Assembly: GCF_020510705.1 (NCBI RefSeq) | Contig: NZ_CP075184.1 | Coordinates: forward strand, 2,604,001 to 2,668,000 | Length of the DNA: 64,000 nt | Reading direction: 5' to 3' | Source: Acidovorax radicis | GTDB taxonomy: Bacteria; Pseudomonadota; Gammaproteobacteria; Burkholderiales; Burkholderiaceae_C | Part shown: piece after piece, positions 1-16,609 of the stretch | How positions within the stretch are numbered: position 1 is the first letter of the stretch | How the letters are laid out: each line of letters begins with the position of its first letter | Translations under genes and position numbers: made by a program | The notes under the pieces: model-generated | Database searches by the model: none | What the model was told of the DNA's origin: nothing | The model's input: only the letters and a program-made list of their open reading frames with translations

Positions 1-1115
1 AGCCGCGAAGGCTCTGCGTCGGCGAAACGCTGGGCAATGCGCCGAAACTCTTCGGACAGCGCAAGAAAGGCGTCCACCATGTCGGGGTCGAAATGGCTGC
101 CACGGCCGTCGCGGATGATCTCCACGGCATGTTCGTGCGAGTAAGCGGGTTTGTAGACGCGTTCTGAGATCAATGCGTCATACACATCCGCCACAGCCAT
201 CAGCCGCGCGGACAGGGGGATGTTGTTGCCCATCAGGCCTTCGGGGTAGCCGGAGCCATCCCATTTCTCCTGGTGGCTGTAGGTGATTTCCTTGGCGTAG
301 CGAAAGAACGGGTTGTCCAGCATCGCATCTGTTTCAGCGGCCACGATGGCGTCACGCCCCAGCGTGGTGTGCGTCTTCATGATCTCGAACTCTTCGGGCG
401 TGAGCTTGCCGGGCTTGAGCAGGATGCGGTCAGGAATGCCCACCTTGCCAATATCGTGCAGGGGCGCCGATTTGAAGATCGTCTCGATGGCGGTGTCTGT
501 GAGATCGTCTTTGAAGCGCGGGTGGTCTTGCAGGTGGCGAGCCAGCGCCTCAACATAGTGCTGCGTGCGCCGGATGTGGTTGCCGGTCTCGTTGTCACGC
601 GTTTCGGCCAAAGACGCCATGGCGCGTATGGTGGCGTCCTGCAGCTCGGCCAATGCGCGTGTGCGGTTGGTGATCTCCTGCTCCAGCAACAGGTTGTGCC
701 GCGCCAGGTAGTCCCGTGCACGCTTGAGCTGCAGGTGGTTGCGCACACGGGCCATCACGATGGCGGGGTTGATGGGCTTGGTGATGTAGTCCACCGCACC
801 CAGCTCCAGGCCAATGCTTTCGTCTTCCGACGCGCTCATGGCAGTGAGAAAAATAACCGGAATGTCTTCGGTGTCGGGGTTGAATTGCAGGCGGCGCAGC
901 ACCTCGTAGCCGTCCATGTCCGGCATCATGATGTCCAGCAGGATCAGGTCGGGCTTGCTCTCTGCGGCCACGATCTGCAGCGCTCGCTCGCCACTGGGTG
1001 CCAGTTTGACCTTGTAGTCCGTGCGCAGAAGATCGCTCATCAGTGACAGGTTGTCGGGGGTGTCGTCGACAACCAGCACCGTGCACTTACCGCTTATCTC
1101 CAGTGGGCTGTTCAT
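1..1115 (-). CDS. HD-GYP response regulator, 3' end outside window
   Basis: Two-component output protein predicted to hydrolyse cyclic-di-GMP. The frame starts at the ATG at 1113-1115 and stays open to the window edge (371 residues visible), so the C-terminus is missing. Residues 10-130 are a receiver with phospho-acceptor Asp61 in [14 protein letters not shown] helical linker follows, then an HD-GYP domain with [11 protein letters not shown] and the signature [10 protein letters not shown]. The start codon lies 29 bases inside the end of the upstream hybrid kinase gene, so the two are translationally coupled and probably form a kinase-effector pair. The phosphodiesterase activity is inferred from the intact HD and GYP motifs. 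Confidence 0.93.
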
Positions 1116-4100
1116 GAACCGGGTCCTCTTTGTCATGTGGGTGGGAGATTCGGGCTTTGCGCAGGGTGGCCAGCGCATTCACAAAATCGTAGCTGTCCAG
1201 CGCGCGCTTCATGGGGGGCAACGCAGGTCCGAGCAGACTCCTCAAGGCAGAGGCCTCTGCGTTGAAGAGCTCGATGGCTTCCGAATCGTCGTCTGCCAGC
1301 AGGGCCTCCAGCCGATCCAGCAGCTGTTGTGCCGCAGCGGTATCGATGGGCGCGCTTGCCGCGCTGTCTGCGCCATAGGTGTCGGGTTCATTTTCCAGAG
1401 GCAGGGCGGTTTGCAGCGCCGCTATCAAGGCTTTGCACGCGGTGTCTACGGGTTGCAGCAGTGCTTCCAGGGTGGTCGCGGGTGCGTTCTGTCCGATGGC
1501 CTGTTCTGCCGCGTGGGCCAGTTCAGCCAGTGGCCCCGCGCCAATTGTGGCGGCTGTGCCTTTGAGCGTGTGCATGGCGCGCTGTGCATTGTCTGGTTGG
1601 TGTGCTGCCAAGGCGGCACGGGCGGTTTGCACTGCCACAGCCTGCCCGGCCACAAATTTGCGCAACAGGCTTTCGTAGGCCGGGCGCTTGTCGAGCACGC
1701 GCCGCAGGCCGGCCTTGACGTCCAGCCCGCCGATGCGCTGCAGCGCATCGGGGCATGGGGCGAGGTCAGGTGTGGGTTCGGAGGCAGCTATCGCCAGCGC
1801 GGTAGCGGGGTCTTCTTGCGCCACTGCGCGCGGTTTGACCCATCGCAGCAGGCTGGCAAACAATTCGTTCGGATCAATGGGTTTGGCAAGGTGGCCGTTC
1901 ATGCCAGCTTCCAGGCAACGATCTCGGTCACGGCTCATGGCGTTAGCGGTCATGGCCAGCACAGGCAGCTCGGCCCACTGGGGGTTGCCGCGCAACAAGC
2001 GAGTGGCGGTGAGGCCATCCATGACAGGCATCTGCATGTCCATGAGCACTACGTCGTAGGGCGCACGCGTGAGCATGTCGAGTGCGATCTGGCCGTTATC
2101 CGCGACCTCGACGACCATGCCTGCGCCCGTGAGCAGTTCACTGCCTACCTGCTGGTTGAGGTCGTTGTCGTCCACCAGCAGCACGCGGGCGCCACGGATC
2201 GTCGCCATGTTGGGGGCATGGCCCGGGGCATGGGTGCGCGGCTCATTGCTTGAAACAACGCGGCCACCGAGAGCCCGCATGGCCGTGTCAAACAGGTCGG
2301 AAGGACTGACGGGTTTGGTCAGCATGAGTGCAATGCCCGAGCGCTCAAGCTCCGGCAGGGCATCGTCGTGGCCCGCCGCCGTCACGATGACGGAGCGGGG
2401 AGGGTGGGGCAAAAGGGCGAGCTGGCGGTGCGTTTCGAAGCCGTCCATGCCGGGCATCTTCCAGTCCAGAAACGCAATCTGACAAGGGTGGCCCGCCAGG
2501 TCGGCGTTGCGTGCCTTGGTCAAGGCATCTTCACCAGAACTGGCGGTTGTCACCGCAAAGCTCATGCTGCTGAGCAGGCCGCTGAGGATCCGCCGCGCCT
2601 GTTCGCTGTCATCCACCACCAGCACATGGCGCCCGCGCAGGTCGGGCTTGGGCATCAGGGCGCTGTGTTGTGTGCTGCCCAGGCCCAGGCGGGCGGTAAA
2701 CCAGAAGGTGCTGCCCTGGTTGGGAATGCTATGCACTCCCACGTCGCCACCCATCAGGCTCGCGAGCTTCTTGGAGATGGCCAGGCCCAGGCCTGTGCCG
2801 CCGTATTTGCGCGTGGTGGAGCTGTCGGCCTGCTCGAAGGAGCGGAACAGCCGCGACTGCTGCTCTTCGGTAAGCCCAATGCCCGTGTCCTGCACTTCAA
2901 AGCGCATCAGGATGCCGTCCACATTGCGCGATATTTCCCTTACCCGCAAAATGATCTCGCCTTCGTCGGTGAATTTGACGGCGTTGTTGGCGTAGTTCAC
3001 CAGGATTTGCCCTAGGCGCAAGGGGTCGCCCCGCAGGTCATCGGGCAGGACAGGGTCCACATCAAACAGCAGTTCCAGCCCTTTGCTGCTCGATTTGCCG
3101 CTGATCAGGTTGGCCACATTGTCGAGCACGCTGCGCAGCTCGAAATCCACCACCTCCACTTCAAGCTTGCCTGCCTCGATCTTGCTGAAATCCAGAATGT
3201 CATTGATCAGCCCCAACAGGTGCTGGCCAGAGCGCTGGATTTTTTCGACATAGTCCCTTTGACGAGGTGAAAGATCGGTGCCTAGCGCCAGGTGGCTCAT
3301 GCCGATGACCGCATTCATGGGCGTACGGATCTCGTGGCTCATGTTGGCTAAAAAGTCCGACTTCATCTGGGAGGCGTCTTCGGCCTTGGCCCGGGCAATC
3401 TCCAGCTCCTCCTCATGCTCGCGCAGCGCTGCATTCACCCGTTGCAATTCGACGGTGCGCTGGGTTACGCGGGCCTCCAGTGCTTCTTCGTTGCGCTTGA
3501 GGGCCTCGACCAGATCGGCCTGGGCGGCCATGGCCAGAGATTTGGCTTTTTCGCGTTTGAGAAACTGCCGCGCCATAGCGAATGCCAGCAAAAACGTGAG
3601 GACGGCCTGGAATGCCGTGAGCCCGGTGGTAAGCAGGGTCTGGCGTTTGATCTCGGCATTGCGCGTATCGCCCAATAGCGCAGACACGCGCGAGGCGTTC
3701 AGGGCGAGTTCGCGCACAGGTTCGCGCAGGAGGTCGAGCTCGCCGCGCAAGAGCCGCATGTTTTTCTGCCAGGAGGCCGCATCCACGCTGGCCCCGAAAT
3801 AGGTGTCACCCGCCGCAACAAAGATCTGCAACGCAGCCAACGCCTGCGCGTAGATGGGCTCGTCCTGCATCAGCGTGCGCGCTGTGCCGCTTTCAAGCGT
3901 GCTGAACCGGCTTAAAAAGAGCTCGTAGCGCAGTTCAAGCTGCTCCATGGGAATGCTGGATGGGGCCAGCTCGAACTGGTGCAGCGCGTGATCTAGCTTT
4001 TCATATTCCACATTGAGCTGCAGAAATGACCAGAGCGCGTTGACATCGCCGCGGCGCATGACCGCCTCGACACTGCGGAATTGGAGGTACTGCACCGCCG

Positions 4101-4167
4101 CAATGGCCACATATGCCAGCACGAGGCCCGCAATGATCAGCCGCAGAATGTGTTTGCTGCGCAGCAT
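1087..4167 (-). CDS. hybrid sensor histidine kinase (HisKA-HATPase-REC-REC-HPt)
   Basis: Membrane hybrid histidine kinase of 1026 residues. TM1 spans about residues 8-28, a periplasmic helical sensor about 30-175 and TM2 about 178-200. A coiled coil (205-265) leads to HisKA with His278 in [12 protein letters not shown], then a HATPase domain ([12 protein letters not shown]). Two receivers follow ([11 protein letters not shown] and [12 protein letters not shown]) and a C-terminal HPt domain with MHTLKGTA. This is the full phosphorelay architecture, so phosphate can pass to a separate regulator. The overlapping HD-GYP gene is the obvious recipient. No known ligand motif is visible in the sensor. 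The periplasmic molybdopterin-domain gene just upstream could be functionally linked, which is inference. Confidence 0.95.
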
Positions 4168-4197
4168 GCGTGGGGTGCCTGGGGACGCTGTGCAGAA

Positions 4198-4728
4198 CTA
4201 CCGGATCCGCAAGGCATTGAGTTGCCAGGCCGCGCGGTTGTAGTACAGCTCGCTGCGCAGCTCAGCCTTGGTGTCAAAAGGGTAGATGATGAACAGCGGC
4301 CCCTTTTCTCGGACAGGCATGGGCCGGTTGTTCATGAGGTGCGCCACGATCACATCGTGGCGTGTGGCGTCCTCCACGGGGATCTCGGTTTTATAGTCAT
4401 TCAGCGCCACCGCCGTGATCTTGCTTCCCTTGGCGCCCACGGCGGCCAGTACATCGCGCAACAACGGGCCGGTGAATGTGACGGGGTCGGGGTACCAGGG
4501 TGTTTGCGTGGAAAAGCTGTGCTGGGGCAGTTTCTCCAGCATCTTCATGTCGAATTGCGCCAGCGGGCCGTTGTTGGTTTGGCTGATCGCTCCTTCAATG
4601 GTGAGAATCACCCGGCCGGTGGGTTTGTCCAGGGCATGCGCTCCTGCGGCTGACAGCGCGAAGGCTCCGATGGCGATGGCCCGGGCCCAACAAGCACCAA
4701 GGCGCACCGCACGAAAACTTGCAGACAT
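4198..4728 (-). CDS. periplasmic molybdopterin-dependent-oxidoreductase-like domain protein
   Basis: Protein of 176 residues with a Sec signal peptide (hydrophobic run about 15-32, probable cleavage after AHA). The mature part resembles the small sulfite-oxidase-like/YedY-type molybdopterin-binding fold: LTIEGAI near the start, TFTGPLLRDVLAAVG in the middle, and a C-terminal GPLFIIYPFD. It lacks the conserved cofactor-ligand cysteine that true sulfite oxidases have in this region, so catalysis is doubtful and a ligand-binding or partner role is possible. It ends 31 bases before the hybrid kinase start and probably shares its transcript. That arrangement suggests it could feed a signal to the kinase sensor, which is inference. 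Confidence 0.7.
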   Translation of the reverse strand: MSASFRAVRLGACWARAIAIGAFALSAAGAHALDKPTGRVILTIEGAISQTNNGPLAQFDMKMLEKLPQHSFSTQTPWYPDPVTFTGPLLRDVLAAVGAKGSKITAVALNDYKTEIPVEDATRHDVIVAHLMNNRPMPVREKGPLFIIYPFDTKAELRSELYYNRAAWQLNALRIR

Positions 4729-5103
4729 GGTCGCCCCCTTTTTTGCAACAATCGCGTGGACTGACGCTCAAAATGTAAACCGATTCACGACCTCGCGGTG
4801 GCGGTTTCAGCGGGAAGGTGGCGCAGATGTCACGCAGGGGCGGGGTGGCCTGCGGTTTTCAGAGGCGGTTTGGTAGGGTGTTCTGAGGGGCGGATGCCAG
4901 CTGCGGCCCGGTATCCCGGGCTTTCAGCGCTTCGGTTGTATGCAGCTGTATGCATGTGCACGGGGCCGCAGCCCTGGCAGTCACAAAGGGGCGCGTCTTT
5001 GATGACCGTGGTCAGACCTACTTACCCCTCAAAAAAACCCAGCCGATCCCTTGCGGGTCACGCCGTGGGCTCCGCGCTGACCAGTGCGCAGCTCAGCGTG
5101 TGT
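4729..5103. other. intergenic region, no gene seen
   Basis: About 375 bases between the molybdopterin-domain gene and the last gene of the sulfur operon. It must hold the promoter of the minus-strand kinase cluster. I see no convincing hairpin terminator or operator in it. Confidence 0.5.
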
Positions 5104-5295
5104 TCATTTCTTCATCGGGCAGGTGTTGATGCCCAGCAACGCGTAGGCCGGACAGAAACGAAACAGTCCAGTGGCCAGGGGCACTACGCCGAGCCAACCC
5201 CACCATCCCACCGTGCCGGTGGCAGCCAGAGCGATCAAGATCAGTCCAGCCACGATGCGCAGCACGCGATCCATAGTTCCTACATTGAGGTTCAT
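5104..5295 (-). CDS. DUF2892 (YgaP-type) small membrane protein, copy 1
   Basis: A 63-residue protein with two hydrophobic helices (about 10-30 and 33-52), TMDRVLRIVAG at the N-terminus and FCPAYALLGINTC near the end. This is the DUF2892 pattern that forms the C-terminal membrane part of E. coli YgaP, in which a rhodanese is fused to it. Here the rhodanese is the separate gene immediately upstream, so the pair looks like a split YgaP. The Cys residues near the C-terminus are typical. It is the last gene of the minus-strand sulfur operon, 106 bases after its neighbour. Function in sulfane-sulfur handling at the inner membrane is inferred from context. Confidence 0.8.
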   Translation of the reverse strand: MNLNVGTMDRVLRIVAGLILIALAATGTVGWWGWLGVVPLATGLFRFCPAYALLGINTCPMKK

Positions 5296-5401
5296 GATGA
5301 TTCCTTAGGTTGAGGTTTGGGTGTTGCTTAACGTTACGGCGCCCAGCGGCAGGGCCCTTCTTGCACCATCGCAATGGATTCGCAAGGCATGCACGGCCCG
5401 A

Positions 5402-5782
5402 TTATTCGAATGAAGGAGATGCAGGAGCTGCGACAGGCTTGCCCGCTGCCACCCACGCATCAAACCCACCCGCGATGGACTGCACCTGCAGGTAGCCCAT
5501 GTCATGCATGGCGCGCGCAGCCAAGGCGGCCCGACCGCTGGTCTTGCAATAAACCACTACCTTCAGGTCGCGCGAGGTGAGCTCGGGCGTGCTGCTGAGC
5601 TTGAACTCAAGCACCCCGCGGGAGGCGTGGATAGCCCCGGGGATGTGACCGGCCTGGTACTCATCGGCTTCGCGTACATCGATGAGCACATCGGCCGAGC
5701 GGATGGCTTCATCCGCTTGGGCGATGGGGACTTCCTGGACATGGGCCTTGGCTGCGGTCACGAGATCGTGGGCTGTTTTCAT
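5402..5782 (-). CDS. single-domain rhodanese (sulfurtransferase)
   Basis: A 126-residue single-domain rhodanese. Key elements are LIDVREADEYQAGHIPGAIH and the active-site loop YCKTSGRAA, whose Cys carries the persulfide; a closing GGFDAW is also present. The chosen ATG at 5780-5782 begins the protein directly at the domain, whereas the longer frame adds an unlikely 23-residue leader. Family members move sulfane sulfur between thiols, cyanide or glutathione. The gene sits between osmC and the DUF2892 gene in the sulfur operon and probably works with the SQR-like and persulfide-dioxygenase-like enzymes. Confidence 0.9.
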   Translation of the reverse strand: MKTAHDLVTAAKAHVQEVPIAQADEAIRSADVLIDVREADEYQAGHIPGAIHASRGVLEFKLSSTPELTSRDLKVVVYCKTSGRAALAARAMHDMGYLQVQSIAGGFDAWVAAGKPVAAPASPSFE

Positions 5783-5825
5783 GGGGTGCTTTCTTGACGG
5801 AGGAGAGGGAAGATTTGCTGCGATG

Positions 5826-6272
5826 TCATTGGAGGACGGTGTTGTTGGCATCCAGCACTTTCACTGCAATGGGAATGCCCTGGCCTACGCTCTGGGTCAC
5901 AGTGCAATAGCTCTCGAACTGAGTCAGCACCCGGTCCAGATGATCCAATTGGCTGGCAGGCACGCCCAGGCGCAAAGTGGCATCCATGCGCAGCACGCGC
6001 AGACGGCCTTCGGCGTTGCGACCCACGTGGGCCACCACGGTGGCATGCAATGGGTCCGGTGCCTGTTTGAACTTGCGCAGCGCGAACAGCAATGAGTCGC
6101 TCAGGCAACTGCCCACTGCGGCGCAAAGCAGTTGTACAGGTGAAGGACCCTTGCCAGAGCCCAGCGGAGCAGGTTCATCCGCGATCAGGTGAGGGACGGC
6201 ATCCCCGAACTGGATGTCAAAGCGGTAGTCCCGTTGCTGGACGAGCTCAACGGTGACCTGTTCGTTGCTCAT
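5826..6272 (-). CDS. OsmC-family protein
   Basis: A 148-residue OsmC/Ohr-superfamily protein. The redox Cys pair is visible as AAVGSCLS (about residue 57) and ESYCTVTQS (about residue 122). Members are thiol peroxidases acting on organic hydroperoxides, and some reduce persulfides or polysulfides. Length is normal. It lies 48 bases after the MBL gene and 43 bases before the rhodanese gene on the same strand. Within this operon a role in clearing reactive sulfur species is more likely than general osmotic stress, but that is inference from context. Confidence 0.9.
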   Translation of the reverse strand: MSNEQVTVELVQQRDYRFDIQFGDAVPHLIADEPAPLGSGKGPSPVQLLCAAVGSCLSDSLLFALRKFKQAPDPLHATVVAHVGRNAEGRLRVLRMDATLRLGVPASQLDHLDRVLTQFESYCTVTQSVGQGIPIAVKVLDANNTVLQ

Positions 6273-6320
6273 GAAAACCTCCGGGTTGGCAAAGAGGGGG
6301 CTGGTTCCTGGGATAGCGTG

Positions 6321-7181
6321 TCACAGCGCGTTGACTGGAATCTTGAGGTAGGTCACGCCGTTGTCTTCTGCGGGGGGCATCGCCCCCGCTCTGATGTTGA
6401 CCTGCACCGAAGGCAGAATCAGGACAGGCATGTCCAGCGTGGCGTCGCGCCGGGTGCGCAGTTCTACAAACGCCGCCTCGGTCACACCGTCGTGCACATG
6501 GATGTTGTGGGCACGCTGATCGGCCACCGTGGTCTGCCACGCGGGCGCCCGCCCTGCTGGTGGGTAGTCATGGCACATGAACAACCGGGTCTGCGGTGGA
6601 AGGCTGAGCAGTTTGCGCACCGACTGGTACAGCGCGTGCGCATTGCCCCCCGGGAAGTCGCAGCGCGCAGTGCCCACATCGGGCATGAACAGGGTGTCGC
6701 CGACAAACACGGCGTCTGCGACCTGGTAAGCCATGCATGCGGGAGTGTGGCCTGGCACGGCCAACGCTTTGGCTTCCAGTTGGCCGATGCGCAATACCTC
6801 TCCGTCGTGAAGCAGCCTGTCGAACTGGCGGCCATCGGGGTGGAACCCCGGCTCCAGATGGAAGATGGCCTTGAACACCTCCTGCACCTGGGTAATTGCG
6901 GCACCAATGGCGATCTTGCCCCCCAGCTTGTTGCGCAGGTAGTGCGCGGCAGACAAATGGTCGGCATGGGCATGGGTCTCCAGAATCCACTGCACTGCCA
7001 AGCCATGGCTTTGGACGAAATCCACCAAGCAATCGGCAGAGTGTGTGCGGGTACGGCCTGATTTGGGATCGTAGTCCAGCACGGAGTCCACCAGCGCGCA
7101 GTGGCCACCGGGTTCATCAAAAACCACGTAGCTCACGGTCCAGGTGGCGTCGTCAAAGAAGGCTTGTATCCGGGGTTTCAT
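6321..7181 (-). CDS. MBL-fold hydrolase, persulfide-dioxygenase-like (ETHE1/Blh type)
   Basis: A 286-residue metallo-beta-lactamase-fold protein. The metal-binding signature HAHADHLSAAHYL is intact. Further ligand segments GHTPACM, FVGDTLFMPDVGTARCDFPGG and FMCHDYPPAGR match the ETHE1/Blh group rather than glyoxalase II. That group uses one iron to oxidise glutathione persulfide to sulfite. It is flanked by two rhodaneses and an SQR-like gene, which fits the canonical sulfide oxidation route (SQR makes persulfide, PDO oxidises it, rhodanese makes thiosulfate). Family assignment is firm; the exact substrate is inferred. Confidence 0.88.
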   Translation of the reverse strand: MKPRIQAFFDDATWTVSYVVFDEPGGHCALVDSVLDYDPKSGRTRTHSADCLVDFVQSHGLAVQWILETHAHADHLSAAHYLRNKLGGKIAIGAAITQVQEVFKAIFHLEPGFHPDGRQFDRLLHDGEVLRIGQLEAKALAVPGHTPACMAYQVADAVFVGDTLFMPDVGTARCDFPGGNAHALYQSVRKLLSLPPQTRLFMCHDYPPAGRAPAWQTTVADQRAHNIHVHDGVTEAAFVELRTRRDATLDMPVLILPSVQVNIRAGAMPPAEDNGVTYLKIPVNAL

Positions 7182-7247
7182 GGGTTGTTTCCTGCTTCGT
7201 TCTCGGTGTACACCGCAAGCCGCTAAGGAGGGGGACGCCTGATCGCG

Positions 7248-7541
7248 TCAGTCGCGCACGATAGGGCGCCCCAGTTGCAAGGCGACGCTGCCCGCACCAC
7301 CCCCATTTGTCACTTGACTGTAGCCTTGCGCCTGCAGCCACTGGACTGCCATGCCAGAGCGTGCGCCCGAGAGGCAGCAAAGCACCATGGGCAGGTCGCG
7401 TTGTGGCAATACGGTAGCGGCCTGCTGCGCCAGGCTGTCTAGCGGCAGATTGATTGAACCGGCCACATGGCCGGAGGCGAACTCACCAGGCGATCGGACG
7501 TCGACGACCAGTTGATGCGGTGGTTGGGTGGCAGAGCGCAT
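7248..7541 (-). CDS. small rhodanese-like protein
   Basis: A 97-residue rhodanese starting at the ATG at 7539-7541. It has VVDVRSPGEFASGHVAGSIN and the active-site loop LCCLSGARSG, where the second Cys is the expected catalytic residue (CxxGxRS type). The open frame extends further upstream, but that part runs antisense-like through the tolC end and has no domain character, so the short start is preferred. It is 41 bases after the TolC-like gene and 66 bases before the MBL gene. It would transfer sulfane sulfur within the operon's pathway. Confidence 0.88.
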   Translation of the reverse strand: MRSATQPPHQLVVDVRSPGEFASGHVAGSINLPLDSLAQQAATVLPQRDLPMVLCCLSGARSGMAVQWLQAQGYSQVTNGGGAGSVALQLGRPIVRD

Positions 7542-7582
7542 GGTTGTGAAAGTGGCAGGGTGAACGCGGGAGTCAGAGCCAT

Positions 7583-8992
7583 TCAAGGATGGGGTGGCGC
7601 GAGTGTTTGCGTGGCATCGGTGGCCGATTGCAATGCGGCTTCGTCCAATTGGTCCGTCAGCGCCATCAACTGCAGGCGCTCTTGCGCCATGCGGGCCTGG
7701 TGCCCCAGCAGGTTGGATTGCGACTGCATGGCGTCGTTGTGTGCCTGCAGCAGATCCAGCGTGGTGCGATCTCCCACCTGGCGGCCAAGCTGGGTCGCCT
7801 CGAGCCGAACCTGGGCCGCCAAGCGCGCAGACTCCAGGGCTTGCGTTCGGGCTGCACCTGCTCGCAGCTGCAGCCACGTAGCGTGCACTTGCTGGGCCAC
7901 GGCAAGCCGAGCGCTGTCCAGCTCGGCCTGCGCCTTGTCCTGCAGACGCAGCAGTTCCTGCTGCCGCGCATCAACTTGGCCACCGGTGTAAAGCGGTACC
8001 TGGATTTGTACACCCACCATGTATTGGCGTGCGGAGTTGCTGGCAGAACCCCATCGGCCAGATCCTGAAAGATGGTCCGCGCCCGCCTGGGCCACTAGGT
8101 CCACCTTGGTGCTGGCTGCGCGCGTGGCCTTGGCGGCCTCTTGCTCTGCCAGTGCGAGGGCCTGGGCCTGCATACGCACCTGGAGGTTGGTGTGGGCGGC
8201 GAGATCGAGCCAGTAGGGTAGGGGTGCGAGCGTGTTGCCATCGCGCGCGGCCGTGGTTTCATTGCCAGACGGGGCGGGCAATTGCAAGGGCGGCAGCTGC
8301 GCGGGGTTCCAGCCTGTGGCCTGGGCCAGTGTCTGGCGCGCAATCTGCATCTCTACATCGGCCGTCTGTACCAGGGCCACATTGGCCAGAGCGCGTGCCT
8401 CGGCTTCGCGCACATCGGTTACTGGGGAGTCGCCCAGCGTGAAGCGGTCCTGCGCTTCTTTCAGGGCCCGGTCCGTGGCTTCCTGCTGGCGCAGTAGCAA
8501 GGCGTGCTGTTGTTGTGACAAGACCGCTGCGAAATACCGCTGGGCCGTTTGCAGCATCAACTGTTGCTGCACCGAGGCCGCCTCAAGTTCGGCCAGGCCG
8601 GCGGATAGCAGCAACTGTCGCCCTTGCGCACTGCGCTCTGGGCTGTACAGCGGCATACGTGCCTCCACACCCCAACGTGTACCTGGGCCGCTGTTCACCG
8701 AGGTGTCAAAACCCACCCCCGAGGTCTGTGGCACCCCTGGCATGGAAAAAGCAGCTCCTTGCGAAGAGGTGCGAGAGCCCATAGCGCCTGCAGCGCCCTG
8801 TGCTGTCACGGTAGGGCTCCACAATCGCTCGGCCTGCAGGCGACGCGCTTGCCCTGCGGCGCGTGTGGCTGCCGCAGCGGCCATGTCCGGGTGCTGCTGC
8901 GCTGCGGCCAGCCAGGCTTCGCGCAAATCTGCCGCCTGGGACGCGCTTATGCCGCTGGCCAGCAAGGCCACACTCAGAAGGAGCTTGCGCAT
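7583..8992 (-). CDS. TolC-family outer membrane efflux protein
   Basis: A 469-residue outer-membrane factor with a Sec signal peptide (cleavage after SQA, about residue 20). Two TolC repeats rich in long Ala/Gln/Leu helices follow, with typical segments such as EARALANVALVQ and QAHNDAMQSQSN. It would form the outer-membrane channel of a tripartite pump. The RND and membrane-fusion partners are upstream in the same operon, separated from it by the SQR-like and DUF2892 genes. This interleaving of pump and sulfur genes argues for one functional unit. Confidence 0.9.
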   Translation of the reverse strand: MRKLLLSVALLASGISASQAADLREAWLAAAQQHPDMAAAAATRAAGQARRLQAERLWSPTVTAQGAAGAMGSRTSSQGAAFSMPGVPQTSGVGFDTSVNSGPGTRWGVEARMPLYSPERSAQGRQLLLSAGLAELEAASVQQQLMLQTAQRYFAAVLSQQQHALLLRQQEATDRALKEAQDRFTLGDSPVTDVREAEARALANVALVQTADVEMQIARQTLAQATGWNPAQLPPLQLPAPSGNETTAARDGNTLAPLPYWLDLAAHTNLQVRMQAQALALAEQEAAKATRAASTKVDLVAQAGADHLSGSGRWGSASNSARQYMVGVQIQVPLYTGGQVDARQQELLRLQDKAQAELDSARLAVAQQVHATWLQLRAGAARTQALESARLAAQVRLEATQLGRQVGDRTTLDLLQAHNDAMQSQSNLLGHQARMAQERLQLMALTDQLDEAALQSATDATQTLAPPHP

Positions 8993-9005
8993 GGCTTTGT
9001 CCTTC

Positions 9006-9215
9006 TCAGCAGCCAGGGCGAACGCCCAGCTTGCGTAGCATGGTCTCCATGAAGCACCACTTGGTGACCCCGCTTTGCAACAGGTTCACGCCCACGAACG
9101 CCGTGAATGCAAGCCACCATTGGCTGACGAAAACAGGACTGCCAGGAATGCCCAGCGCCAGAGAAAGCAGGATGAAGGCGCCTGCGGCCACACGCACGAT
9201 TTGCCAGGTTGTCAT
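9006..9215 (-). CDS. DUF2892 (YgaP-type) small membrane protein, copy 2
   Basis: A 69-residue protein with two hydrophobic helices (about 8-26 and 31-48). The C-terminal TKWCFMETMLRKLGV is a common DUF2892 ending. It is the second such gene in the operon and lies 13 bases before the tolC-like start and 63 bases after the SQR-like gene. DUF2892 domains repeatedly accompany rhodaneses, persulfide dioxygenases and BigR-type regulators. A role in moving or sensing sulfur species at the inner membrane is inference. Confidence 0.8.
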   Translation of the reverse strand: MTTWQIVRVAAGAFILLSLALGIPGSPVFVSQWWLAFTAFVGVNLLQSGVTKWCFMETMLRKLGVRPGC

Positions 9216-9278
9216 GAGGAACTCCTTGTCGAAAAAACGTTGAAAACAGGGGGAGGGCGGCGCTGGGCCACCGTCTTG

Positions 9279-10619
<1,341 letters not shown>

Positions 10620-13600
10620 TCAGTCTGTTCCGTGGTGAACGGTCGCCTCTGATGGGCTGTCGTCAGGTGGGCTGGCAGGCACGGCGGCGCCCGCGCTGTT
10701 GTTCTCGCTGCCATTGCGGTATGCGGCGTAATACAGGGTCGGAATCACCACCAGTGTCAGCACGGTGGAAACAAAGATGCCGAAGATCAGCGAAATGGCC
10801 AGGCCATTGAAGATCGGGTCGTCGAGAATGAAAAATGCGCCGATCATGGCCGCCAGCCCCGTGAGCACAATGGGCTGTGCACGCGTGATGGCCGAGTGGA
10901 TGATGGCTGTCTTGAGGGGCATACCCTCCCGCACCTGCAGGTTGATGAAGTCCACCAGCAGGATGGAGTTGCGCACGATGATGCCTGCCAGGGCAATCAT
11001 TCCGATCATGCTGGTGGCCGTGTACTGCGCGCCCATCAGCGCATGGCCCGGCATCACACCGATGATGGTGAGCGGAATGGGCGCCATGATGATGAGTGGC
11101 GTGAGGTAGGAGCCGAACTGCGCCACCACCAGCAGGTAGATCAGAATCAGGCCCACTGCGTAGGCCGCACCCATGTCGCGGAAGGTCTCAAAGGTGATCT
11201 GCCATTCGCCATCCCACTTGATCGCATAGCCGCGCAGCGCATCTGCAGGCTGGCGCACGAAATACTCTTGCACCGATCCGCCGTCAGGCGCGACGATGCG
11301 GGCGATGGCGCTGCGGGCCTGGAACACGCCGTAGAGAGGACTGTCCACGCGGCCTGCCATGTCGGCCACGACATAGTTCACGGGCAACATGTCTTTGTGG
11401 TGCACCGGCTGTTCGCGCAAGGTGTTACTCACGGTGACCAGCTCGCGGATGGGAACCAGCTGGCCTTGAGAACCCCGTACCGTCAGCCGCAATAGCGCCT
11501 CCAGGTCGCCATGGCTTTCTGCCGGCAACTGCAGGAGCACAGGCGCGGGGTATTTGCTCGCATCGCGCAGCCAGGTGGCGGCTTCGCCACTGAGCCCCGC
11601 ATGCAGCGTGCTCACAATGGCCTGCTGGGGGATTCCCAGCAGCGCGGCCTTGCGCCGGTCCACGGTGAGCAGCTTGCGGGGGGCGTCGGCAATGCTGCTG
11701 TCATCCGCGTCCACAATGCCTTCGGTGGCGGCCAGTGCGGTGCGCACGGCGTGCGCCACTTCACGCCGACCTTCGGCATCGGGCCCATACACCTCGACAA
11801 CGATGGGCGACAGCACCGGCGGGCCGGGAGGCACCTCCACCACCTTGACGTTGGCACCATGGCGCTTGCCGATCTCTTGCAACGCAGGTCGCACCCGCAT
11901 GGCAATGGCGTGGCTTTGGTCCTTGCGGTGGTGTTTGTCGACCAGGTTGACCTGGATGTCACCCACTTCGCCACCTGCGCGCAGGTAGTACTGGCGCACC
12001 AGGCCGTTGAAGTTGATGGGCCCTGACAGGCCTGCATAGGCCTGGTAGTCGGTCACCTCCGGCACGGTGGCGAGGTAGGCACCCAGCTCGTGCAACACGG
12101 CGGCCGTGCGTTCCACGGGTGTGCCCGCAGGCATGTCCACCACCACCTGGAACTCGGACTTGTTGTCGAACGGAAGCATCTTGAGTTGCACCCAGCCCAG
12201 CACTGGCAGGGCTATCGACAAGGCGATGAGGGCGGCCACACCAAGGCCCAGCCAGCGCCTGTTTCGCGTGCCATGGCGCTCATCCAGCAAGGGGCTGAAC
12301 ACGCGCTCAAACACCGGTGCAATTCGTGCGCTGAGGCCGCTGTGTGCCGGGGTGGAATGCCCTTGAGGGTGGGCAGCGTGCTCCTTCATCCACAGGCGGG
12401 CCAGCCAGGGGGTGATGATGAACGCCACGGCCAGCGACAGCAGCATGCCCATGCTGGCGTTGATCGGGATGGGGCTCATGTAAGGGCCCATGAGGCCACT
12501 CACGAATGCCATGGGCAGCAGGGCTGCGATCACGGTGAATGTGGCCAGAATGGTCGGACCTCCCACCTCATCCACGGCGTGCGGGATGAGATCCTTGAGG
12601 CTGCGCCCTGGGTGCAACAACTGGTGTCGGTGGATGTTTTCCACCACCACAATGGCGTCGTCCACGAGGATGCCGATAGAGAAAATCAGGGCAAACAGCG
12701 ACACGCGGTTGAGCGTGAAGCCCCAGGCCCAAGACGCAAACAGCGTCACCGTGAGCGTCAGCACCACGGCCAGGCCTACGATGGCGGCCTCGCGGCGGCC
12801 CAGGGCCAGGAACACCAATGCAACGACCGACGCCGTGGCGAACAGCAGCTTCTGGATGAGCTTTTGCGCCTTGTCGTTGGCGGTGGCTCCGTAGTTGCGT
12901 GTTTCCGTCACTTCCACGCCTTCGGGAATCACGGTGTTGTGCAACTGTGCGACCCTTTGCATCACGGCATTGGCGACGTCGATGGCGTTCTCGCCCGCTT
13001 TCTTGGTCACCGTGAGGGTCACGGCGGGGTATTCGTCCACGGTGCTCTGCGAGGCTGCCGTACCGTTGTCGGCCGCTCGCCGTGGAACCCCGTGCCAGAC
13101 GTAGCGGCTTGCTGGCAAAGCGCCGTCCTGCACGTCCGCCACATCCTTGAGGAACACCGGCTTGCCCGATCGCACGCCCACCATGATGTCGGCCACCTCA
13201 TCGGCGCGGGTCAGGAACGGGCCGCTGTCGAGTTGGATGGACCGGTCGCCGCCCAGTAGTTCGCCCACGGGCAATCCCATGTTTGCCGACTGCAAGGCGC
13301 TGCGCAGGTCGTCTAACGTGGTGCCCGTGGCGGCCATGCCGTTTGTGTCGATGCGCACAAGCACAGCGCGGCCCGGGCCGCCGAGTGTTTGCACCTCGCG
13401 GGTGCCGGGCACGCGCTTGATCTCAGCCTCCAGGCTGTGGGCCACGCGCTCCAGCGCAAAGGCGCCCGAGGTGTTGTCGCGGCTGTGCAAGGTGAGTGTC
13501 ACCACGGGCACATCGTCGATGCCCTTGGGTTTGATGATCGGATCCATGGCCCCCAGGCCCTTGGGCAGCCAATCGGCATTGCTGCGCAAGGTGTCGTGCA

Positions 13601-13958
13601 GGCGCACCAGCGCTTCCGTGCGTGGCACACCGACCTTGAACTGCACCGTCATCACCGCCATGCCCGGCCGCGACACCGAGGTCACGTGCTCCGTGCCTTG
13701 CATCTGCGACAGCACCTGTTCGGCTGGTGTGGCAATCATCTGTTCGACATCTGCCACGGATGCACCCGGGAACGGCACGATGACATTGGCCATCGTGACG
13801 TCGATCTGCGGCTCTTCCTCGCGCGGCGTGACCAGTACGGCAAACACGCCGAGCAAAAACGCCACCACAGCCAGCAAAGGCGTGATTTGTGCGCCCTGGA
13901 ACAGGGCGGCGATGCGGCCGGAAATGCCAAGCGGAGAAGAAATTTGGGGGGTCTTCAT
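10620..13958 (-). CDS. RND efflux transporter permease
   Basis: A 1112-residue RND inner-membrane pump. TM1 is followed by the subclass signature PREEEPQIDVTMANVIVPFP and a first periplasmic loop. TM4 carries the proton-relay acids in GILVDDAIVVVENIHRH. A second large loop and a final TM block are present. The start is the ATG at 13956-13958, one base after the stop of the membrane-fusion gene; a longer upstream extension would overlap that gene. It belongs to a tripartite pump with the adjacent adaptor and the TolC-like gene. The substrate cannot be read from sequence. The sulfur context suggests a sulfur species, thiol conjugate or metal-thiolate, which is inference. Confidence 0.93.
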   Translation of the reverse strand: MKTPQISSPLGISGRIAALFQGAQITPLLAVVAFLLGVFAVLVTPREEEPQIDVTMANVIVPFPGASVADVEQMIATPAEQVLSQMQGTEHVTSVSRPGMAVMTVQFKVGVPRTEALVRLHDTLRSNADWLPKGLGAMDPIIKPKGIDDVPVVTLTLHSRDNTSGAFALERVAHSLEAEIKRVPGTREVQTLGGPGRAVLVRIDTNGMAATGTTLDDLRSALQSANMGLPVGELLGGDRSIQLDSGPFLTRADEVADIMVGVRSGKPVFLKDVADVQDGALPASRYVWHGVPRRAADNGTAASQSTVDEYPAVTLTVTKKAGENAIDVANAVMQRVAQLHNTVIPEGVEVTETRNYGATANDKAQKLIQKLLFATASVVALVFLALGRREAAIVGLAVVLTLTVTLFASWAWGFTLNRVSLFALIFSIGILVDDAIVVVENIHRHQLLHPGRSLKDLIPHAVDEVGGPTILATFTVIAALLPMAFVSGLMGPYMSPIPINASMGMLLSLAVAFIITPWLARLWMKEHAAHPQGHSTPAHSGLSARIAPVFERVFSPLLDERHGTRNRRWLGLGVAALIALSIALPVLGWVQLKMLPFDNKSEFQVVVDMPAGTPVERTAAVLHELGAYLATVPEVTDYQAYAGLSGPINFNGLVRQYYLRAGGEVGDIQVNLVDKHHRKDQSHAIAMRVRPALQEIGKRHGANVKVVEVPPGPPVLSPIVVEVYGPDAEGRREVAHAVRTALAATEGIVDADDSSIADAPRKLLTVDRRKAALLGIPQQAIVSTLHAGLSGEAATWLRDASKYPAPVLLQLPAESHGDLEALLRLTVRGSQGQLVPIRELVTVSNTLREQPVHHKDMLPVNYVVADMAGRVDSPLYGVFQARSAIARIVAPDGGSVQEYFVRQPADALRGYAIKWDGEWQITFETFRDMGAAYAVGLILIYLLVVAQFGSYLTPLIIMAPIPLTIIGVMPGHALMGAQYTATSMIGMIALAGIIVRNSILLVDFINLQVREGMPLKTAIIHSAITRAQPIVLTGLAAMIGAFFILDDPIFNGLAISLIFGIFVSTVLTLVVIPTLYYAAYRNGSENNSAGAAVPASPPDDSPSEATVHHGTD

Positions 13959-13959
13959 G

Positions 13960-15030
13960 TCAGCGCACCTTGGCGGCAGCTTGTGGCTGAAGTGCAATGC
14001 GGTCGCCAGCACGCACCCCGCTCAACACCTCCACCATGTCGCCTGCGGGCCGCCCCAGGCGCACCTGGCGCAGCAGCGGCCGGTTTTGGCCGTCCAATAC
14101 ATAGACGCCCGTCATTTCCGCACGCCGCACCACCACGCCAGCGGGCACCAGCAACGGGCCAAAGGCAGCGTCCGCGGAGGCCGCAGCGCCCTTGCCCGCG
14201 TTCAACCACAGACGGGCAAACATGCCGGGGGCGGCGCCCACCACGCTGGGCGGGAGCTCCACACGCACCTGCACGGTATGGCTTTGCGCATCGACAGTAG
14301 GCAGCACTTGCACCTTGGATGCTGGGACCGCGACGCGCGGTGCGGAGATGCCTGGAATGTCGACCTGCAGGTCACCACCGCCCGTATCGCGCAGCGCGGC
14401 GGCCTGCTGTTGTCCCACATAGGCGGTAACACGCATCAGCGACGGGTCGTACACGGTCAGCAAAGGTTTGCCGGGCATGGCCATGTCACCCAAGGTGGCA
14501 GGCACATGGCCCACCACGCCCGCAAACGGCGCCTTGATGACGTAGAAGCCGGACTGTGTGGCGGCAGCGCCAGCCTGGGCCTGCAGGGCCTGCGCCTGCG
14601 ACTGACTGGCGCGCCACTGTGCCTCGGCCCGGTCCAGCGCTGCCTGGCTGATGTATTGCTTTTGGAACAGCTGTTTTTGGCGCTCGTATTCCTTGGTGGC
14701 CACTTGCTGGGCGGCGCGTGCCGCGTCTACCTGGGCGGCGCTGGCGGCGGCGTTCTGTTGCGCCGCGCGCGCATCGATGCGTGCCAGCTCCTGACCCGCG
14801 ACCACGCGGTCGCCTGCCTTGGCAAGGAGGCTGATCACCGCGCCCTGCACCTGGGCAGAGAGGGTGGCATCCCGTACGGCCTCGACCTGAGCGTCCACAC
14901 TGCTGGCCAATTGGGTGGCCGCCGGCTTCACGGTAAAGCTGGCAATCTGCTGCACAGCGCCGTCGCTGGCAGCCCATGCGCCCGACACGGCCAGGGAAAG
15001 CGCAGCGGTCAACAGGGGCAGGGACTTCAT
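13960..15030 (-). CDS. RND periplasmic adaptor (membrane fusion protein)
   Basis: A 356-residue HlyD/AcrA-type adaptor with a signal peptide (cleavage after AWA, about residue 20) but no lipobox Cys. The biotinyl-lipoyl half motif (VEAVRDATLSAQVQG) is followed by a helical hairpin rich in Ala/Gln, the second lipoyl half (IKAPFAGVVG) and beta-barrel/membrane-proximal domains. It is the first gene of the ten-gene minus-strand operon. It faces the arsR-type gene across a 97-base AT-rich region that contains a dyad operator. Confidence 0.92.
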   Translation of the reverse strand: MKSLPLLTAALSLAVSGAWAASDGAVQQIASFTVKPAATQLASSVDAQVEAVRDATLSAQVQGAVISLLAKAGDRVVAGQELARIDARAAQQNAAASAAQVDAARAAQQVATKEYERQKQLFQKQYISQAALDRAEAQWRASQSQAQALQAQAGAAATQSGFYVIKAPFAGVVGHVPATLGDMAMPGKPLLTVYDPSLMRVTAYVGQQQAAALRDTGGGDLQVDIPGISAPRVAVPASKVQVLPTVDAQSHTVQVRVELPPSVVGAAPGMFARLWLNAGKGAAASADAAFGPLLVPAGVVVRRAEMTGVYVLDGQNRPLLRQVRLGRPAGDMVEVLSGVRAGDRIALQPQAAAKVR

Positions 15031-15127
15031 GGGAGGCTCCGTAGAATTTTTGTGCGATTGATTATTTAACTAATCAGCTAATTAGTCAATAATGTATCAT
15101 GTACTTCCGATGCACGGAGATCCCGCG
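15031..15127. promoter_or_regulatory. divergent promoter with AT-rich dyad operator
   Basis: The region between the efflux adaptor and the ArsR-type gene is strikingly AT-rich. It holds a dyad: ACTAAT at 15069-15074 and ATTAGT at 15081-15086. A looser outer symmetry extends from ATTATT (15061-15066) to AATAAT (15088-15093). ArsR/SmtB repressors commonly bind such AT-rich inverted repeats, so this is probably the autoregulatory operator for both transcripts. The dyad is seen directly; binding is inferred. Confidence 0.65.
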
Positions 15128-15466
15128 ATGAGAGAGATGCCCCCAGAAGCCCTTGAGCAAGTTGCTGCTTATTTTCAGGTTCTAGCCGAACCCACGCGGT
15201 TGCGTATCCTCAATCTGCTGCGTGGCGGAGAGAAAAATGTGGGAGACCTTGCTCAGCAATGTGGCTACACGGCGGCCAACATTTCCCGGCATCTGTCGTT
15301 GATGACCAAACATGGTCTCGTGGCACGGGAAGGGCGTGGGACCAGCGTGTTTTACCGGCTGACCGATGAGTCGGTGGATGCGTTGTGTGATCTGGTCTGC
15401 GGCAATATCGCCCGCCGACTGGAGCGGGATTCTGCGGCCAGTGCTGCGTTTCAGATAGCGCGCTAG
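15128..15466 (+). CDS. ArsR/SmtB-family transcriptional regulator
   Basis: A 112-residue winged-helix repressor (LAEPTRLRILNLL, recognition helix TAANISRHLSLM). The ATG at 15128 begins just before the domain. An ATG at 15092 would add 12 residues and overlap the operator. Three cysteines are present (about 45, 87 and 91): one in QQCGYTAAN beside the recognition helix and two in LCDLVC near the C-terminal helix. Redox-type ArsR sensors such as BigR/SqrR use two Cys, one per region, to sense persulfide. The Cys pattern and the divergent sulfur/efflux operon support persulfide sensing, but the spacing is not identical to BigR, so metal sensing remains possible. Confidence 0.88.
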   Translation: MREMPPEALEQVAAYFQVLAEPTRLRILNLLRGGEKNVGDLAQQCGYTAANISRHLSLMTKHGLVAREGRGTSVFYRLTDESVDALCDLVCGNIARRLERDSAASAAFQIAR

Positions 15467-15811
15467 TCTGTGTTGGTGTGGATTGCAGAGTCCACGCGCT
15501 GAGCGCAAGCGCGGCGCGCTGAATCTGAATGGATGGGGCCAGCAGAAGATAGTCGGATGCTCGCTGCACGACACACACACAGTTCGTCGGAAATGATGGC
15601 GCCCCGAATGGGCCAGGTGCTGTAGCTGGCGCAATCCGATCCATCACAACTGCACGGTGGAAATGGTGGTTTTCGTTTGCCGACATCAATTTATAATTTG
15701 ACATAATATACATCGTATCTAGTTGTATAGAAGCCAAAACGATCCGGCCTCCACACGCATCTCAGGCGCTGTCGACTCTGTCCACCACGCAAGCCGCTAC
15801 CATCCACGCCC
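15467..15811 (+). promoter_or_regulatory. intergenic region with possible promoter for SDR gene
   Basis: A 345-base region with no gene. It turns AT-rich around 15685-15730, where TTGACA (15698-15703) and the short dyad ATACATCGTAT (15708-15718) lie upstream of the SDR gene. A matching -10 at ideal spacing is not clear. The dyad followed by TTGTAT resembles GntR-type operators, which is a weak suggestion only. Confidence 0.35.
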
Positions 15812-16609
15812 ATGACCCTTCCCACCCAAGCACTCTCCACATCACCCATCCACTTCGGCCATCAGGGCCGTGTCTGCATCGTCACTGGCGGCGCACAAGG
15901 CATTGGCGAGGCCTGTGTCCGCCGTTTCGCGGCTGAAGGTGCCAAACTGGTGATCGTCGATGTGGACGATCTGCGCGGCCAGGCGCTGGCGCAGGAACTG
16001 GGCGCGCTGTATGTGCGCTGCGATGTGGGCGATAAATCGCAGGTGGATGCACTGGTGGCCCAGACCCTGGCGACCTACGGGCGCATCGACGTGCTGGTGA
16101 ACAACGCGGGCATCTTTCGCGCTGCAGACTTTCTGGATGTGACCGAGGCCGACTTTGACGCCGTGCTGCGGGTCAACCTCAAGGGCTCGTTCCTGGTGGG
16201 TCAGGCGGTGGCGCGGGCCATGGTAGCTTCGGGCGGCGGCTCCATCGTCAACATGAGCTCGGTCAACGGCGTGCTGACCATTCCCAATATCTCCAGCTAC
16301 AACGTGAGCAAAGGCGGCGTGAACCAGCTCACGCGCGTCATGGCCCTGGCGCTGGCCGACAAGAACATCCGTGTCAATGCTGTGGCCCCCGGCACCATCG
16401 CCACCGAGCTGGCCGCCAAGGCCGTGCTGACCAGCGACGAGGCCAAGAACAAGATCATGAGCCGCACGCCTATGAAGCGGCTGGGCGAGCCGTCGGAGAT
16501 TGCCGACGTGGTGGCCTGGCTGGCCAGCGACGCTGCCAGCTATGTGACCGGCGAGATCGTGACCGTGGATGGCGGGCGCATGACGTTGAACTACACGGTC
16601 CCCGTCTGA
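15812..16609 (+). CDS. SDR-family oxidoreductase
   Basis: A classical short-chain dehydrogenase/reductase of 265 residues. The NAD(P)-binding TGGAQGIG is at about 25-32, with an acidic residue after beta-2 (VDVDD) favouring NAD(H). The NNAG motif, the Ser of the active site (NMSSVNG) and the YNVSK catalytic Tyr-Lys are all present. The C-terminal GEIVTVDGG is typical. The substrate cannot be told. It stands alone, convergent with the MATE gene, and a dispersed palindromic repeat separates them. Confidence 0.9.
   Translation: MTLPTQALSTSPIHFGHQGRVCIVTGGAQGIGEACVRRFAAEGAKLVIVDVDDLRGQALAQELGALYVRCDVGDKSQVDALVAQTLATYGRIDVLVNNAGIFRAADFLDVTEADFDAVLRVNLKGSFLVGQAVARAMVASGGGSIVNMSSVNGVLTIPNISSYNVSKGGVNQLTRVMALALADKNIRVNAVAPGTIATELAAKAVLTSDEAKNKIMSRTPMKRLGEPSEIADVVAWLASDAASYVTGEIVTVDGGRMTLNYTVPV

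Follow-up and report, generated by a model that had tools for sequence, protein, structure and literature searches.

Gene content of the locus

Positions 5,104 to 15,466 of a 64,000-nucleotide stretch of the Acidovorax radicis genome (hereafter the window; the genome is a single contig of 4,995,154 bases) hold a predicted sulfide/persulfide operon with a probably recruited RND efflux pump, an arrangement that recurs in relatives and is partly in print. Leftwards from a divergent ArsR-family regulator, the minus-strand genes follow one another in the order adaptor, RND permease, sulfide:quinone oxidoreductase (SQR), DUF2892a, TolC-like protein, rhodanese A, dioxygenase, OsmC-family protein, rhodanese B and DUF2892b, with intergenic spacings of 1, 54, 63, 13, 41, 66, 48, 43 and 106 nt. 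An earlier note, made from the letters alone, had described ten tightly spaced genes in which a complete tripartite pump stands amid genes for sulfide and persulfide detoxification. All ten (5104-15030) and the divergent regulator were confirmed at the positions in Table 1, family models upheld the identities of the adaptor, RND, TolC-like, rhodanese, OsmC, DUF2892 and metallo-beta-lactamase (MBL) proteins, and the linkage of RND to SQR was found repeatedly across the order Burkholderiales, as detailed below.

Table 1. Genes and sequence features of the A. radicis locus (positions in the window)
Feature	Position	Strand	Supporting evidence
ArsR-family regulator, 124 aa, Cys57/Cys99/Cys103	15092..15466	+	HTH_metalloreg 83.5 bits (cutoff 55)
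Promoter-like site TTGACT-17-AATAAT	15061..15089	-	in ArsR/adaptor gap
Imperfect palindrome, 18 bp, candidate ArsR operator	15069..15086		16/18 positions
RND periplasmic adaptor (MFP), 356 aa	13960..15030	-	RND_mfp 169 bits (cutoff 94.9); HlyD_D23
RND permease, HAE-like, 1112 aa	10620..13958	-	ACR_tran 492 bits
Predicted type I SQR, 428 aa	9279..10565	-	SQR chain match; Cys128/160/354
DUF2892a (YgaP-like_TM), 69 aa, Cys54	9006..9215	-	PF11127
TolC-like outer membrane factor, 469 aa	7583..8992	-	OEP 155 bits
Single-domain rhodanese A	7248..7541	-	PF00581 46.7 bits; active loop CLSGARS
Persulfide dioxygenase, MBL fold	6321..7181	-	4ysk E 1e-120; THAHADH at residue 69
OsmC-family protein	5826..6272	-	PF02566 48.1 bits
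Single-domain rhodanese B	5402..5782	-	PF00581 78.5 bits; active loop CKTSGR
DUF2892b (YgaP-like_TM), 63 aa, FCPAYALLGINTC	5104..5295	-	PF11127 87 bits

Sulfur enzymes

The flavoprotein, previously called SQR-like, is by its sequence a type I SQR with all three catalytic cysteines. It matches the solved chain 3sz0 at full length (residues 2-425, E 5e-184) and also 3hyv (E 6e-112), which we take to be the type I enzymes of Acidithiobacillus ferrooxidans and Aquifex aeolicus, respectively. Cys128, Cys160 and Cys354 all align with cysteines of 3sz0, and the catalytic cysteines of the A. ferrooxidans enzyme are presumably those numbered 128, 160 and 356. The closest named relatives of the window protein are from Acidovorax. 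Likewise, the MBL-fold enzyme, earlier described as ETHE1/Blh-like, is identified as a persulfide dioxygenase by its match to 4ysk and 4ysl; residues 5-286 align with 4ysk, and the HxHxDH metal motif is present. The 4ysk record is titled 'Beta-lactamase domain protein' and is presumably SdoA from Pseudomonas putida. Against the bifunc_ST_SDO/Blh model the protein scores 393 bits (cutoff 625), the match covering the dioxygenase part only. In both rhodaneses the active-loop cysteine is kept.

The pump and the DUF2892 proteins

An ACR_tran permease, an adaptor, an outer membrane factor and the Asp-Asp pair of transmembrane segment 4 are all present, as in tripartite pumps of the HAE type. The closest PDB relatives of the permease are efflux pumps (about 226 bits), and it scores under every listed NCBIfam cutoff; the TolC-like protein similarly scores 157 bits against type_I_sec_TolC, under the cutoff of 225. 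In a tree of 81 RND proteins, the clade of the window permease was split from six control RNDs with a support of 100, and the Asp-Asp motif GILVDDAIVVVE was found by pattern search in 112 of 121 clade proteins.

The adaptor, permease and channel of the window contain no cysteine, and we considered this as a possible adaptation to persulfides. Cysteine-free permeases make up 95 of 103 in the clade versus 4 of 18 other RNDs, and 18 of 20 clade RNDs outside the order lack cysteine as well, with no SQR beside them; the absence is therefore a trait of the clade, and the idea was rejected. The cysteine of DUF2892a is invariant in all 116 aligned copies, which include a few duplicate loci.

The regulator and the control region

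The earlier note had likened the regulator to those of BigR-type operons. Its assignment to the ArsR family stands; as a BigR it was rejected, since it scores only 39.2 bits against the BigR model (cutoff 155) and lacks both cysteine positions, having Asn and Ala where the BigR-like proteins of neighbouring loci have the cysteine pair of BigR, SqrR and YgaV. The two conserved cysteines of this sensor class are described as Cys50 and Cys116 in sHdrR (PMC12423496). Among window-type ArsRs of relatives, Cys99 and Cys103 are kept in nearly all and Cys57 in most. A search of the host genome with the BigR-like protein of locus L099 returned no BigR-like regulator elsewhere at E <= 1e-8, a result that says little.

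The gap between the regulator and adaptor genes holds the lone minus-strand promoter-like site in 4600-15900, which fits a single transcript without proving one; on both strands of this region together, three such sites were found versus 2.0 expected by shuffling, and terminator-like sites were no commoner than in shuffles (8 versus 7.7). The candidate operator overlaps both the promoter-like site and another 16/18 palindrome. Palindromes of at least 16/18 occurred in 18 of 48 ArsR-adaptor gaps, as compared with a mean of 1.6 and a maximum of 5 in 20 rounds of shuffling. Their letters vary between groups of loci, a pattern that might reflect an operator drifting along with its protein.

Linkage within the genus

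SQR was found in nine of 36 genomes of the same genus, that of A. radicis included, and the RND permease in 10 of 47. Among the 36 genomes shared by both searches, some of them incomplete (down to 72%), the permease occurs in exactly the nine that carry SQR; the two are thus both present in nine genomes and both absent from 27. They are adjacent in 9 of 9, separated by 41-73 bp.

Of the loci read, three have the complete set of eleven genes, counting the ArsR: the window, L017 of an Acidovorax benzenivorans strain, and L099. Four loci (L101, L102, L019 and L018, the last from Acidovorax soli with pump and SQR present) lack the dioxygenase and OsmC genes, L100 lacks OsmC, and at L097 and L104 the contig breaks off. 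In L099 a BigR-like gene lies between rhodanese A and the dioxygenase, a hint that the distal half may have been a BigR-type module of its own that was later joined on.

Linkage across the order

A sample of 250 genomes of the order was searched for three of the proteins. At E <= 1e-200 the permease has 107 listed matching places, spread over 104 genomes and reaching down to 39% identity; 78 genomes carry a type I SQR (E <= 1e-100) and 73 the dioxygenase (E <= 1e-70). Of the 107 RND places, 25 have SQR no more than 6 kb away, and this share varies with the identity of the permease to that of the window: 12 of 23 places at 70% or more, 11 of 64 at 60-69% (a single genome contributes two of these 64 as RND pieces) and, at about 40%, 2 of 20. 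Counting SQR-bearing genomes only, the corresponding values are 12 of 13, 11 of 44 and 2 of 19. In 4 of the 23 genomes having both, the dioxygenase and permease genes are no more than 6 kb apart (G000, G051, G147 and G274; counted by eye).

For DUF2892a, sixty hand-chosen places were fetched, of which 20 come from the 23 in the closest class, 36 from the 64 at 60-69% and 4 from the 20 at about 40%. The window, L106 and L107 were added, and L130 (genome G254, with no full RND frame) and L162 (the same place as L110, which if kept would be one more DUF2892a-positive locus) were dropped; L098 and L103, which duplicate L017 and L019, were removed from the clustering and gene-order counts. Antisense open reading frames in these GC-rich loci spoiled simple gene calls, and hidden Markov models run on stop-to-stop frames were therefore used for the family counts. 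DUF2892a was found within 6 kb of the permease at 57 of the resulting 61 loci: 19 of 19 in the closest class, 34 of 38 at 60-69%, 3 of 3 at about 40% and the single unclassed locus. In addition, within family f21 a clade RND was matched in 110 of 150 genomes, and among 20 hand-chosen loci DUF2892a stood beside the permease in 19 and SQR within 6 kb in 5.

Two sets of control loci were searched for the same families. Neither DUF2892a nor SQR was found at 20 arbitrary loci, hand-picked positions in 20 of the same genomes, where the matches were one adaptor and one weak MBL protein. The same was true of 20 loci of other RND pumps, two of which (L201 and L210) lack an RND match of sufficient length, and which gave one weak rhodanese and one MBL match. 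Since both control sets are without DUF2892a and SQR, the linkage of the pump to sulfur genes is beyond chance.

A rhodanese also occurs beside pumps of the 60-69% class, and as a sign of a sulfur role it was discarded, being read as housekeeping yibN. At eleven such loci (L136-L140, L155-L157, L163, L164 and L166), adaptor, RND and DUF2892a genes lie between iPGM/M23/S41 peptidase genes and a rhodanese-glutaredoxin-SecB-glycerol-3-phosphate dehydrogenase row, presumably the yibN-grxC-secB-gpsA locus; L136, L137, L140, L151, L157 and L164 are representatives, and the gene-by-gene check covered part of these loci and genes. In genomes G253 and G254 (L130), the clade RND is split or without a full frame.

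Variety of gene orders and of regulators

Seventy-eight loci with both RND and SQR, mostly retrieved via SQR, differ in their gene order. The commonest arrangements are MFP-RND-DUF-OEP-SQR (16 loci), MFP-RND-SQR-DUF (15), MFP-RND-SQR-DUF-OEP (10) and MFP-SQR-RND-DUF (10), followed by MFP-RND-DUF-Trx2-SQR (5). Because one gene set occurs in such varied arrangements, these sequences point to a common task. On the RND tree, the starred branches force the SQR label to be gained or lost no fewer than 15 times, and 22 changes are needed in all. The tree was built by a quick method and has long control branches, L116 is wrongly labelled as SQR-bearing on a 70-bit match, and the length filter let through only 6 of the 20 control loci.

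The regulators of relatives vary as well. In Undibacterium L066 and in genome G274 (L122) the dioxygenase, rhodanese B and DUF2892b genes lie across the same ArsR gene from the pump and are transcribed in the opposite direction. In Polaromonas (L051 and L057; about 4075-11971) the pump stands directly beside a regulator resembling the persulfide sensors, since a BigR-like ArsR gene diverges there from the row dioxygenase, adaptor, RND, SQR, DUF2892a and OsmC; the best NCBIfam model for the L051 regulator is BigR, at 102 bits, below the cutoff of 155. Ten further loci (L022, L027, L040, L049, L050, L054, L062, L072, L091 and L142) carry a regulator of the CsoR family, which follows DUF2892a at nine of them, preceding OsmC at two of these (L022 and L054), and is divergent in L142. 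These proteins have two cysteines, and comparison with the CsoR histidine motif by eye revealed no CsoR-type histidine; they are possibly CstR-like. No NCBIfam model passed for the two that were scanned.

At L122:12401-13039, near SQR and RND, lies a methyltransferase gene with a match to thiopurine-S-methyltransferase; members of its sequence cluster were seen at five loci.

Comparison with known systems

Pathways that combine SQR, persulfide dioxygenase (PDO) and rhodanese exist in heterotrophic bacteria, and the same three activities are predicted for the window, where the pump and DUF2892a stand among them. Furthermore, in BigR, SqrR and YgaV operons an ArsR-type persulfide sensor accompanies PDO/Blh, rhodanese and DUF2892. 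Dioxygenase, rhodanese and DUF2892 genes are likewise near an ArsR gene in the window, which differs in having a type I SQR and an RND pump, and an ArsR without the BigR cysteine positions.

The earlier note knew of no case with a dedicated RND pump among sulfur genes and stated that a pump for sulfur species would be a new link to efflux. The link is partly anticipated in print. The operon Dsui_3440-3443 of Azospira suillum PS, as described in PMC5358917, encodes an unknown protein, an efflux pump, SQR and an RND MFP subunit; it was flagged by Bar-seq with H2S and is highly expressed, by RNA-seq, under H2S-oxidizing conditions. Compared by this published description, it shares with the window adjacent MFP, RND and SQR genes and a small extra gene. 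Going by the gene numbers, its order is MFP-SQR-RND-DUF2892a, which is that of ten of our gene-order loci and of L211, L223 and L230. A dioxygenase, rhodaneses, OsmC and a TolC-like protein, all present in the window, are not named in that description. In addition, according to a 2025 survey (PMC12423496), ArsR regulators that respond to sulfane sulfur appear to act on sqr, pdo and rhd genes and also on RND efflux pumps. That survey required the two BigR-type cysteines, which the window ArsR does not have. The passages of PMC10128140 and PMC2864759 that were seen hold nothing on such an operon.

Role of the pump

We tentatively place first the reading that the locus is a sulfide-stress operon whose pump is a co-regulated partner, most likely removing excess product of SQR. 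The divergent ArsR would repress a single transcript and leave its operator under sulfur stress. SQR, at the inner membrane, would convert H2S to sulfane sulfur with reduction of quinone; the rhodaneses, OsmC and the DUF2892 proteins would pass this sulfur to and between thiols, and the dioxygenase would oxidize part of it, with sulfite formed from glutathione persulfide. What accumulates in the membrane or periplasm, be it polysulfides, S8 or organic polysulfanes, could then be ejected to the outside by the RND pump, with DUF2892a perhaps as its small inner-membrane companion. The export step and its substrate are a guess, backed by the linkage alone. In favour of the reading as a whole stand the catalytic cysteines of SQR and the dioxygenase match, the ties of the pump to SQR in the genus and to SQR and DUF2892a in the order, the sulfur-type regulators of relatives, the dioxygenase genes found across the ArsR gene in L066 and L122, and the Bar-seq and RNA-seq signals of the Azospira operon with H2S.

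Several observations weigh against this reading. The SQR label on the RND tree is slightly more clustered than when shuffled (22 changes versus a mean of 25.9, with 36 of 500 shuffles as low), and the changes include losses, so that it is the differing gene orders that speak for repeated joining. In genomes with type I SQR, 33 of the 44 RND places at 60-69% identity are not near it. Among 80 named SQR loci, all retrieved via SQR, 41 have long enough flanks, and the pump is present in 30 of these and absent from 11. Deletion of Dsui_3440-3443 left the rate of H2S oxidation unchanged (0.49 versus 0.50 mM/h; PMC5358917), in an assay of H2S removal rather than of tolerance or export. Finally, at 20 hand-chosen loci outside the order (L231-L250, 56-65% identity to the query RND) DUF2892a was seen once and SQR never, with the proviso that the models were trained on loci of this order and could miss a diverged DUF2892. 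Recurrent neighbours there are LysR (11 of 20), an AI-2E-type transporter (10), PhoH (9), a protein of about 113 amino acids without a Pfam match (9) and an AhpC-type gene (6). Because the clade at these 20 loci lacks sulfur neighbours save for one DUF2892a, the older role of the pump need not involve sulfide, and the sequences make it likeliest that the pump was recruited to sulfide rather than evolved for it.

The term 'dedicated', which the earlier note had applied to the pump, is thus not borne out: the clade has no SQR within 6 kb at 82 of the 107 places in the order, nor at any of the 20 loci outside. The separation of pump and sulfur genes in most relatives, which that note had named as counting against its proposal, is absent within the genus and found over the order as a whole.

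Nearly as likely as the removal of SQR product is that the pump is a general envelope or multidrug RND without sulfur cargo, merely co-induced so as to cross-protect the cell from, for instance, lipophilic toxicants. Members of the clade or its relatives are widespread, with a match in 121 of 274 genomes sampled from the class (E <= 1e-210, relatives down to about 40% identity counted), and the sparse sulfur neighbours at the 20 loci outside the order point the same way, as do the HAE-like character of the permease, its Asp-Asp pair and the naming of its closest PDB relatives as efflux pumps. Moreover, sulfane sulfur is reported to act on drug-resistance repressors of the MarR/MexR type. However, unless co-regulation alone is responsible, a general pump leaves unexplained both the near-constant DUF2892a beside the permease in the order and the presence of SQR beside it in many different gene orders.

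A more specific version of sulfur export appears unlikely, namely that in a betaproteobacterial lineage an old RND pump was converted to the export of zero-valent or poly-sulfur from SQR, with DUF2892a as a dedicated inner-membrane subunit or a persulfide relay and the three-cysteine ArsR in control. A small RND subunit has a model in AcrZ, which sits on AcrB.

Export of metal-sulfide or metal-thiol complexes arising under sulfide stress is improbable. The Azospira authors proposed metal-sulfide export by H2S-induced RND pumps (PMC5358917). The window ArsR has three cysteines, as do many metal sensors, and the weaker PDB relatives of the permease include ZneA (4k0e, 166 bits), a heavy-metal pump. 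However, the permease is closer to multidrug models than to CusA/CzcA (433 versus 248 bits) and fails that heavy-metal class (TIGR00914, cutoff 701), and none of the three pump components in the window offers a cysteine.

That pump and sulfur genes became neighbours by an accident of insertion, without working together, is very unlikely and was already disfavoured: the rarity of the complete set and the BigR-like gene of L099, placed as if a distal module had been joined on, would fit it, and the matching presence and absence across the 36 genus genomes, the several gene orders and the controls without SQR or DUF2892a speak against it.

How sulfide-oxidizing heterotrophs dispose of insoluble sulfur and reactive polysulfides is, to our knowledge, an open question. 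If the pump does export sulfur, they would possess an active route for its excretion. The recurrent tie between this pump clade, SQR and a cysteine-bearing DUF2892 protein provides a concrete gene set for testing, and the unfamiliar cysteine layout of the ArsR may mark a further type of sulfur sensor. The co-occurrence of SQR and RND is already in print for Azospira (PMC5358917); what goes beyond it is how widely RND and DUF2892 are paired in the order, the near lack of that pairing at the loci read outside and the non-BigR sensor, which together pose a testable question.

Adjacent genes

Downstream of the operon and on the same strand, positions 4198-4728 encode a protein with a molybdopterin-binding oxidoreductase domain (PF00174), followed at 1087-4167 by what is, judged from its sequence, likely a hybrid histidine kinase.

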